NCBI GenBank assembly: GCA_959347315.1
Contig: OY365810.1
Location: 9,085,647-9,149,646, forward strand
Origin: Bimastos eiseni
Taxonomy: Eukaryota; Annelida; Clitellata; Crassiclitellata; Lumbricidae
Reading direction: 5' to 3'
DNA: 64,000 bases
Shown here: positions 29,967 to 46,974 of the stretch, in pieces
Numbering within the stretch: position 1 is the first letter of the stretch
Layout of the letters: each line of letters begins with the position of its first letter
The notes under the pieces: generated by a model
Told to the model about the DNA's origin: nothing
What the model saw: the letters and a program-made list of their open reading frames with translations, nothing else
Database searches by the model: none
Program-made: the position numbers and the translations under genes

Positions 29967-30079
29967 AGATACTAGAGAATGTTCTCATCATATGAAGTAC
30001 CACCAGCACAACACAAGCATGAAAATCCATTTCATGTCAGGTTGCATCGTCTTGGCTTTGCTCTTCCCAGGGCTGGAAT
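29967..30079 (-). CDS. delta-type terminal exon, hydrophobic C-terminus (unit 1)
   Basis: Acceptor TTATGTTTTTTAG, phase 1; the split codon is aspartate. It reads [16 protein letters not shown], then [13 protein letters not shown] and TGA at 29990-29988. The hydrophobic block is at the very C-terminus, as in the alpha paralogue, which suggests either a tailless membrane anchor or a GPI signal. ATTAAA on the minus strand at 29911-29916 is a possible poly(A) signal. A GTGAGTATCA donor at 29966 matches the alpha donor GTAAGTATCA, a relic or an alternative splice site. Copies: 38177-38289 and 57349-57461. Confidence 0.6.
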
Positions 30080-44200: not shown

Positions 44201-46974
44201 TAAATCCATAAGTTGAGGTTCAACCACCATCCACACAAAAAATTATTTCAAGATCTTTGTTCCAATGGCATCCTTGCTAATTTTCTGCTGAGAAATTCTG
44301 AAATTGACCTTATGTTGAGGTGCAATGTTCAGAAAGCAAAGTACAAGACTGACCATGCAAGATCTTAACCATTAACTACGCAAGTTAAGTCACAAATCTT
44401 GATATTCATGGCTGTCTCCAGATAAGTCTTAAGAAACGCTCCTCTTCAGTCTGATCTTACTGAGCATTGCATATTATTATCAGAGACTTCAAGAGTATAA
44501 ACTTTAATGTGCAACATTGTTGTCTAAGTACACGTAGTATGCTTGGTCCTTGAACAAGTTGCAGCCGTTAAAAGCAAATGGAGTGACCTCCCTGTAACGA
44601 CCCAGGAAAGCCATTTGCCCACAAGTGCTTCTGTAATCTAGCAGAACTGATTTGTCCATTACTGGCTCAAGGGCCAAAGGTCAGAATATGCGCCTTCCCC
44701 ACGCTTACATCTGTGTACTATATTTTTAAAATGTGCCAAGAGTTTTCAGGCAATGATTAAATGGTAATATCCTGACTTAATAATCAATGATAACAACGTA
44801 GTTTACCATAACATATTCAACAAACAGAATGAAATGGCCACCAGCATACAAACTGAAAATTCATGTAGCTGACAATATCAACAGCACAAAGATTTGTTAC
44901 AGCACATCTTCCAACTATTTACAGCTATCATTTTTTTCTAATGACAACAAAAGCTTTTCATATTTTTTGATTAATTTAAGGATCAACATTCATGCACAAG
45001 ACGAAAGTATTCCACATCAATATAATCAAAGGCTTGTTCATCTCTCAGCAAAGATGTTTCCTGTACATTGTCTATGATATTCAATAAGACAGCCTAATTC
45101 CAAGAAATGCAACTTTCAGATGCGGTATGTGAGCATCATTCTTGCGGAAGTTTTAGGCAGCGACTCGTTTTACAATGATGAGCTGAAATTGTTCTTGCAC
45201 AACCATTATTGCAAGGTATGGTACAGAAACCTGAATTGGAAATGTTTTGGTCTACTAAGTCACTGTTGGACACTCTGTACATCAGACAAATTAAGATTGG
45301 AAAAAGATTTCACTTCGATGTCTCCATTTTGTGAGCAATAGTGATATCCCCACAGATCTCACCAAGAGTGATAAATCACTTCATAGGATGAAACCTGTGT
45401 TTGACTTCCTGATGTCTAAATTTTCCATGGCTTATATTCCAAGCAAGAACATTGCAGTTGATGAATCGCTGATGCTATTCAAGGGATGACTTGCAATGAC
45501 AGTGCATACCCATGATACACACATTGGACTAAAGCTTTACAAACTTTGTGAGAGTCAGTTAGGTTATATGTGGAATGCTACTGTTCACAAAGATCCGAGT
45601 ATGACTTAGAAACAGTCAGCTGATGGATAGAAATCCTCCAGCACTGCCCTTACATTGGTCAATGATCCCACTTGGCCAACGATATTGTGTGTTTCTCAAC
45701 AATTTTTAAACTTCACCATTGTTGTTCTGTCTCTTGCATGAGTAACAGATAGATGCTGTTGGAACTGATAGATTGAACAGAAAGCACATGCCCATTGCTC
45801 AGTGAACTGAAAAAGAAGATTGTTAAGGGATCCACTGTAGTCAGATTCAGTCGTGAGCTTGCGGCTATGAAATGGTTTTTTCATTTTATAATATTATTTT
45901 GAGCCTTTAAGAGCAAAATGACGACAACATCATTGGGTCTGTGAAGGACAGCATTCCATTCACTTCCCATAGCGTGGGGAACTCGGGCTTCTACTTAAGA
46001 CCACCCAGTAAGCATTGTGCTAGACTGCTAGTACCGTGGGAAAGTGTCTACAGCTGTAGCCTGTTGTGCAGAGTGAGTCATAGCGCCTGCTTAATTACCC
46101 TGGGCACAATCATGTCATTTTTAGGCCAAATTGGCAAGTCGAAAAAAAGGCCTGTCTGGGGAGGGAATGGCACCATTGGCATGTTAGAAGACGTCTAGTT
46201 ACATAGATTATCTTTCCTCTCCTCCGTCATGCAAGGTCGACAGCGTGCAGTGTGCCTAATCTCTTGCTGCCTAGGATTAGTCCTCAACTACATGTATACG
46301 TCTCCTACTGAGCAAGTGTTTGCTTGAATCACAACAATAGGTAGTAGCAGTAGGTCTATCTTTTAGAACCGTCATCTTGAGAAACACAATGAAACAATCG
46401 GTAAAATAATCGGCTAAATAATCGGGCATCGGCAAACGAATAATCGGCAATAATCGGTATCGGCATAATCGGTATCGGCATAATCGGCAAAAAGAGATAT
46501 CGGTAAAGCTCTACAAAGCAGCATCCAACTAGTCGCTGCAAGGTTTGTTATTAGCAGACAGCACAGAATGGCAAGAAAATAAGAAGGAAACACCATACTT
46601 TTGTCCAGATTGGGATGTTCCACTAAGTGTGGTTCCATGCTTTGAGATTTATCACCCTAGGAAGAACTACTGACTACTTATCCTCAGGGATATTTCTATC
46701 CATTATGGTCACAGACAAGTGTCAGTGTCAAATAGCAACACAGAACATTTTTTTATGTTAAACCTGAAAACAACATGTTTTGTTTATACAAAAATAATTG
46801 AATGGTGAGACGATTTTAATGAACAGGTAAAAGGTTAACAACTCTGCAAATTAATATCATTACCCATTTATCCTCAGGTTTCATTTTCAAATCCAGTGGT
46901 TCTGTGGGTGCAGGTTTCTCATGGAGATCCACATCTTTACGAACCATTTCTTAAGGTTTTGCAGATTCTAGAGG
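38177..46974 (-). CDS. IgSF gene gamma, chimeric (whole-gene model)
   Basis: The most complete chimera. In order: 46974-46864 (ATG 46947), 44058-43929, 43176-43117, A1 42832-42593, B1 41196-40953 (frameshift), A2 40334-40062, junction 39105/39104, B2-delta 38849-38661, terminal 38289-38177. Phases match throughout. The alpha-type extracellular exons come from unit 3, and the 3' exons from unit 2. The product would differ from alpha only in its membrane-proximal domain and anchor. The B1 frameshift interrupts the full-length frame; exon skipping would restore it. Confidence 0.5.
38661..38849 (-). CDS. delta-type exon B2 (unit 2, gene gamma)
   Basis: Copy of 30451-30639, identical by eye. Confidence 0.65.
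40062..40334 (-). CDS. exon A2 (unit 3, gene gamma)
   Basis: Copy of 12680-12952, same phase and splice sites; shares the unit 2 base at 40099. Confidence 0.7.
40953..41196 (-). pseudogene. exon B1 with frameshift (unit 3)
   Basis: Copy of 13571-13814, same 244-base length and stop. Confidence 0.65.
41802..42232 (-). mobile_element. Tc1/mariner relic (unit 3)
   Basis: Copy of 14420-14850. Confidence 0.65.
42593..42832 (-). CDS. exon A1, Ig-like domain (unit 3, gene gamma)
   Basis: Copy of 15211-15450, Ig motifs intact. Confidence 0.75.
43117..43176 (-). CDS. leader exon with hydrophobic core (unit 3)
   Basis: Copy of 15735-15794, phase 1 to phase 1, LILLLLC core. Confidence 0.5.
43260..43691. 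mobile_element. 432-bp hAT element (unit 3)
   Basis: Copy of 15878-16309 with the same AGCTAAAG duplication on both sides, so it inserted before the triplication. Confidence 0.92.
43929..44058 (-). CDS. second coding exon of gene gamma (unit 3)
   Basis: Copy of 16547-16676. Confidence 0.45.
45082..46002 (+). mobile_element. piggyBac transposase pseudogene (unit 3)
   Basis: Copy of 17700-18620 with the same stops and the D-to-N change in the LNNF motif. Confidence 0.85.
46864..46974 (-). CDS. first coding exon of gene gamma (unit 3)
   Basis: Copy of 19482-19592; ATG at 46947-46945. Confidence 0.45.

Follow-up and report, generated by a model that had tools for sequence, protein, structure and literature searches.

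A 19-kb tandem duplication with a predicted fusion gene, probably one gene drawn twice across an assembly gap

Results

The window is a 64,000-bp stretch (C5:9085647-9149646) of a 660-Mb genome assembled in 118 contigs. It holds exons of two genes, Y and X, parts of which lie in a duplicated unit, U. The exon borders of Y and X are predictions, read by eye from the sequence. Positions are those of the window, and a strand is given where a feature has one.

15211-15450 (also 34383-34622 and 42593-42832), minus strand: Y exon A1, from splice borders, phase and likeness to A1z on C7
13571-13814 (exact copies at 32743 and 40953), minus strand: Y exon B1, 244 nt, from comparison with gene Z
12680-12952 (also 31852-32124 and 40062-40334), minus strand: Y exon A2, from splice borders and phase
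10554-10778, minus strand: Y exon B2 (B2Y), outside U
9248-9347, minus strand: Y transmembrane-like exon, its hydrophobic stretch judged by eye; it ends at a GTAAGT donor, as in Z
30451-30639 (also 38661-38849 and 57833-58021), minus strand: X exon B2 (B2X), inside U
29988-30079 (also 38198-38289 and 57370-57461), minus strand: putative last exon of X with a short hydrophobic C-terminus, weakly supported, from an open frame and an acceptor
63359-63622, minus strand: X exon X1 (A-type), outside U

Y and X are paralogues. B2X and B2Y are 29.5% identical, with E 2.7e-7 when five exons are compared with one another and E 2.4e-5 when tblastn is run on the non-redundant parts of the window; A1 and X1 are 19.7% identical (E 4e-6 and 2.9e-4 in the same two comparisons). 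A third paralogue, Z, lies on C7 with its A and B exons at 10516142-10517126. Its exons follow the order A, B, transmembrane-like exon and have phase-1 borders, which supports our exon models. A1 and A1z are 36% identical in the genome-wide search (E 1.4e-4) and 35% in the 184-kb region formed by the window and 60 kb on each side (E 4e-11). A2 and B2X, read at 12680-12952 and 30451-30639, have AG/GT borders and phase-1 ends, and their remaining copies are identical to those read or one synonymous base apart.

The transmembrane-like exons of Y (at 9247) and Z both end in ATGTAAGT, so that the stop codon overlaps a strong-looking splice donor. The Y and Z proteins may end at this point, or they may continue by splicing into a tail. 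A search for a signal-peptide exon of Y, X or Z yielded no convincing donor plus signal. A comparison with Z for cytoplasmic exons returned at E<=0.05 only A1, X1 and B1 as family-like, the rest being repeats or unconvincing.

Upstream of A1 lies a 109-bp stretch (15614-15722) that is 96% identical to a stretch upstream of X1 (63792-63900), at nearly the same distance from the exon. The proteins encoded by the exons beside it are merely about 20% identical. The stretch has no match in Rfam at gathering thresholds, and it could be a conserved intronic element, a trace of gene conversion or a repeat.

Between A1 and A2 sits exon B1, which the sequence-only reading of this stretch did not include. 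It resembles the B exon of Z: the match has 41% identity and E 5e-9 within the 184-kb region, and in the genome-wide search 45% identity, one in-frame stop and E 0.006. It also has a good-looking acceptor and a GTAAGT donor. Its length of 244 nt is 1 modulo 3, hence the reading frame is lost. B1 is identical in all three places where it is drawn and frameshifted in each. The step from A1 to A2 also runs from phase 1 to phase 1. Because of the frameshift, Y and any fusion that carries its 5' exons would be full-length solely with B1 skipped.

The A-type exons show a weak likeness to immunoglobulin domains. Two of the four match Pfam Ig_4 (best E 0.0017) and two of the four Ig_3 (best E 0.0031). 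X1 has an Ig_3 match at E 0.003, and its tabulated matches lie below curated cut-offs. None of the three B exons matches an Ig family; they have weak non-Ig matches in single members. A profile of the four A-type exons finds eight matches among PDB sequences at E<=1 (best E 0.015), and all eight are antibodies or immunoglobulin superfamily molecules, judged from their names. At the curated Pfam cut-off, support for membership in this superfamily is sub-threshold.

The family has at least three loci genome-wide, namely Y, X and Z, from searches with the fusion, Z and X1. The X1 query matched only itself at E<=1 and Z missed X, hence these searches are of limited sensitivity, three is a lower bound and diverged members would be missed. 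In the 184-kb region no further family gene was recognised besides Y and X at E<0.2. Among 5.8 billion proteins, a query without B1 gave 189 candidates, none of them a homologue at E<=10.

Self-BLAST and base-by-base comparison show that the 19,172-bp unit U is present twice in the window, in tandem and near-identical.

11719-30890: first copy of U (U1), 19,172 bp, in the left contig, from self-BLAST and base-by-base comparison
39101-58276: second copy of U (U2), in the right contig, from base-by-base comparison
30891-30894: junction between the end of U1 and the start of U2, near the end of the left contig; drawn a second time at 39101-39104

The comparison of 11719-30894 with 39101-58276 is ungapped and gives 99.97% identity across 19,176 bp. 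Six positions differ, five of them internal substitutions and the sixth the base at the breakpoint edge, and there are no indels. The internal divergence is thus 5 in 19,172 (0.026%). One of the five internal substitutions falls in A2 (12717/40099) and is synonymous.

Read on the minus strand, the left side of U contains the 5' exons of Y, and the right side the 3' exons of X. Its left edge (11719) falls between A2 and B2Y, and its right edge (58276) between X1 and B2X. The exons found outside U are B2Y and the transmembrane-like exon of Y, and X1 of X. The sequence-only reading had placed the edges of the unit inside phase-1 introns of two paralogous genes, its "alpha" (Y) and "delta" (X), and this holds for the A2-B2 intron of Y and the A-B intron of X. 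As a consequence, the junction puts Y's A2 upstream of X's B2. The exit phase of A2 and the entry phase of B2X are both 1, and the frame is held across the junction. As assembled, the locus has the form of a chimera made by tandem duplication: a contiguous segment occurs twice, its ends lie inside two genes, and one new junction joins them.

Both edges of U lie within high-copy repeats.

11595-12506: repeat TE1, 912 bp; 1,324 first-look candidates, 40 scored
58265-58500, extending beyond 58500: repeat TE2; 2,181 first-look candidates, 40 scored

Of the 40 scored TE1 matches, 37 are copies outside the window with 89-92% identity, and partial copies reach 94%. The left breakpoint lies 124 bp inside TE1, which is truncated at the junction, and the right breakpoint roughly 8-15 bp inside the edge of TE2. 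The regions around the two breakpoints show no similarity at E<=1e-3, and the two edges have about 3 bp in common. Two unrelated repeats with about 3 bp shared fit end-joining or template switching.

Three other origins of these edges were considered and set aside. Homologous unequal crossing-over does not agree with edges in two different repeats that lack a match at E<=1e-3 and share about 3 bp. The junction could also have come from a further copy of TE1, polymorphic and inserted at the right edge, but the TE1 sequence at the junction is identical to the copy at 11719 past the edge base and leads on into unique exons, and the copies scored elsewhere have 89-94% identity. The edge of U is not a repeat terminus either, given its position 124 bp inside TE1.

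The window contains a single run of N, and the sequence on its two sides is the same.

34919-35118: scaffold gap of 200 N, the sole N run in the window
26909-34918: terminal 8,010 bp of the left contig, repeated without change at the start of the right contig
35119-43128: initial 8,010 bp of the right contig, a probable unmerged overlap with the second drawing of the junction and the chimeric exons

The two 8,010-bp stretches agree base for base (8,010 of 8,010) and are flush with both edges of the gap, so that the end of one contig is identical to the start of the next. The junction is drawn once in each. At 30891-34918 the left contig has part of a second copy of U; this partial copy covers two of the internal sites at which U1 and U2 differ (31889 and 34742), and at both it has the base of U2.

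Genome-wide, a 1-kb mid-U probe (16100-17100) drew 637 candidates, of which 40 were scored. Two of these match over its full length, and 38 are confined to the first 218 bases of the probe, a repeat. A1, A2, B2X and the last exon have three matches each. Two units and a doubled 8-kb overlap would give these numbers. Of the 40 matches scored for a 400-bp junction probe (1,099 candidates), two are full, and these are the two drawings.

Discussion

Our results suggest that there is most likely one junction and one chimera at this locus. The sequence-only reading had described two internal junctions and two chimeric genes, "beta" and "gamma". A phase-compatible junction between the 5' part of Y and the 3' part of X is indeed present. 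Two independent junctions are not borne out, given the exact 8,010-bp overlap. The two genes are likewise identical over the whole overlap, and the mid-U probe has two full matches among those scored. Most likely, "beta" and "gamma" are one gene that appears twice because the overlapping contigs were not merged. That reading had itself named an assembly error at the junctions as what would overturn it, and such an error very likely affects one of the two.

We think that the locus is probably an ordinary recent tandem duplication in which a single fusion gene has been counted twice. A non-homologous replication or repair accident would have duplicated a 19,172-bp segment in tandem. The two breaks would have fallen in high-copy repeats unrelated to each other, the left one within the A2-B2 intron of Y and the right one within the A-B intron of the neighbouring gene X. 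Both parental gene structures would have been kept and one fusion gene added between them, made of the exons A1, (B1) and A2 of Y followed by B2 and the last exon of X. In assembly one contig would then have ended, and the next begun, within a shared 8 kb that spans the junction, and in scaffolding the two would have been put next to each other with 200 N between them. Two contigs that overlap at the junction and are placed in this way make the junction and the fusion gene appear twice. We infer that the overlap represents one locus and that the duplication is real in the animal.

Any tandem array with an internal gap yields the same dovetail geometry, hence the flush overlap alone leaves room for at least three copies of the unit. 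In that case a middle copy would have about 11 kb hidden in the gap, and the fusion genes "beta" and "gamma" would both be real and identical. At the divergence between U1 and U2, two distinct copies would be identical over 8,010 bp with a chance of about 0.12. In the 118-contig assembly, no third full match of the 1-kb mid-U probe appears among the 40 scored matches. The left contig's partial copy also agrees with U2 and does not form a third type. We therefore regard three or more copies as decidedly unlikely. Of three gaps in the 184 kb examined, this one alone has an overlap, and a further 20 kb contained no gap, so that this sample offers no sign of unmerged overlaps being common in the assembly.

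A different objection is that the duplication itself could be an artefact. U would then be single, U1 and U2 would be its two haplotypes, and the junction would be due to a chimeric read or to a spurious loop in the assembly graph. The junction is present solely in the 8 kb beside the gap, near its middle (3,982 + 4,028 bp), and the contigs end at the gap 167 and 176 bp past sites that distinguish U1 from U2. The near-central junction and the contig ends close to distinguishing sites may point to thin read support. Both contigs that meet at the gap are short as well (43 and 60 kb, from the gap positions), and false chimeric gene gains of this type are among the cases published in PMC9516828. 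Against one sequence walked twice stand the five internal substitutions, which, unless they are consensus errors, imply two sets of reads and hence two copies or two haplotypes. Read as heterozygosity, five substitutions and no indels over 19 kb would be a very low figure for most marine invertebrates. At 0.026%, two copies are thus favoured over two haplotypes, so far as this general expectation applies. Past the edge base, the TE1 sequence at the junction is also the same as at 11719 and leads on into unique exons, and the TE1 copies scored elsewhere are 89-94% identical, so that the assembly is unlikely to have jumped through some other copy of the repeat. On balance an artefactual duplication seems rather unlikely to us, and a real tandem duplication with one fusion gene remains our preferred reading.

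The sequence-only reading went further and saw in the junctions a way for a recognition-receptor family to diversify by DNA rearrangement. On this view the locus would be a cluster of recognition receptors in which rearrangement between intron positions is a selected and recurrent source of new combinations of ectodomain and anchor. The A- and B-type exons of Y, X and Z are, apart from B1, symmetrical phase-1 modules, hence an exchange in the A-B intron keeps the frame. The fusion would combine the outer exons of Y with the different C-terminus of X, and the insensitive genome searches may have left more members to be found. The other observations do not favour the idea. There is most likely only one junction, its breakpoints lie within unrelated repeats, B1 is frameshifted in every copy, and the 60 kb flanking the window on each side yielded no additional recognisable family gene. 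Matching intron positions are also not rare by chance. The A-B introns make up 37% (Y) and 93% (X) of the intron length seen, so that both breaks falling into them (about 0.37 x 0.93, conditional on both breaks lying within introns of the two genes) is unremarkable. We consider selected, recurrent rearrangement very improbable. With three loci found by searches of limited sensitivity, breakpoints in unrelated repeats, a frameshifted B1 and sub-threshold Ig matches, the claim of a recognition family diversifying in this way finds no backing here, and the labels "ligand-facing" and "recognition" are unsupported in our analysis.

If the fusion is transcribed, it would yield no full-length product unless B1 is skipped. 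One could imagine that the young Y-X fusion (0.03% diverged) is real and expressed with B1 skipped. It would then place A1 and A2 of Y on the B domain of X, with the short hydrophobic end of X in place of the transmembrane-like exon of Y. Such a protein would amount to a change in how a receptor ectodomain is anchored, possibly a polymorphic one. We find this outcome improbable.

Chimeric genes from tandem duplications are described for Drosophila yakuba (PMC5460883). In the cases set out there, the ends of a duplication lie inside two genes and join the 5' end of one to the 3' end of the other, as they do here. The present locus differs from those cases in that it joins paralogues at a matching intron position and is known from its sequence alone. 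The KIR hybrid genes are another close parallel, since tandem Ig-receptor paralogues are fused via intronic breakpoints there too. The KIR hybrids covered in PMC3606631 arise by unequal recombination at homologous repeats shared between introns and are seen in many haplotypes, whereas the breakpoints here share merely about 3 bp and one haplotype was seen. False duplications separated by a gap, and the false chimeric genes that result from them, are documented in PMC9516828. The resemblance lies in copies split by an assembly gap and in extra chimeric gene models; the cases reported there were judged by read depth and linked reads, the locus here by comparing sequences.

If the duplication is real, then the locus adds one more fusion gene produced by tandem duplication of neighbouring phase-1 modular genes, which is a known route. 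The more useful point concerns the reading of assemblies. Where a recent tandem duplication contains a 200-N gap, a single junction passes for two and a locus of three genes for four. Hence, copy number and the number of "independent" chimeras should be counted after contig overlaps have been merged.

The Alr genes of Hydractinia (the ARC, an allorecognition complex) are clustered immunoglobulin superfamily genes whose cell-surface products have weak Ig-like domains. What the present locus would share with them is clustered surface genes with weak Ig-like domains. We also considered whether the locus could be of the Hydractinia or Botryllus allorecognition type and compared COX1 on C118 codon by codon with a mammalian chain. 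AGR codons stand at arginine sites in none of 10 cases and at serine sites in 5 of 10, with two at glycine and one each at aspartate, proline and threonine; ATA stands at methionine sites in 14 of 16 cases. We take this usage to be that of the invertebrate mitochondrial code and not that of cnidarians, sponges or tunicates. On this presumed link between code and phylum, an allorecognition locus of either type was rejected.

Several other features deserve mention. Of 44 candidates in the genome, 35 are COX1 matches. Besides the one on C118, six span positions 1-435 of 436 with TGA stops only (on C15, C16, C5 and C4, and two on C6). These near-full copies are either large nuclear mitochondrial insertions or misplaced mitochondrial sequence. 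An exon-like stretch near 19592/46974, which has no Pfam match at E<=0.01, may have set the end coordinate of the sequence-only reading. Remains of non-LTR retrotransposons lie on the plus strand at 61324-62296, in the A-B intron of X, and at 20383-22284, inside U; they have reverse transcriptase and endonuclease matches, most of them below cut-off. Finally, an exon on the plus strand at 3622-3888 matches Pfam FSAF1 (40S processome assembly factor 1) with E 6.6e-10, above the cut-off.
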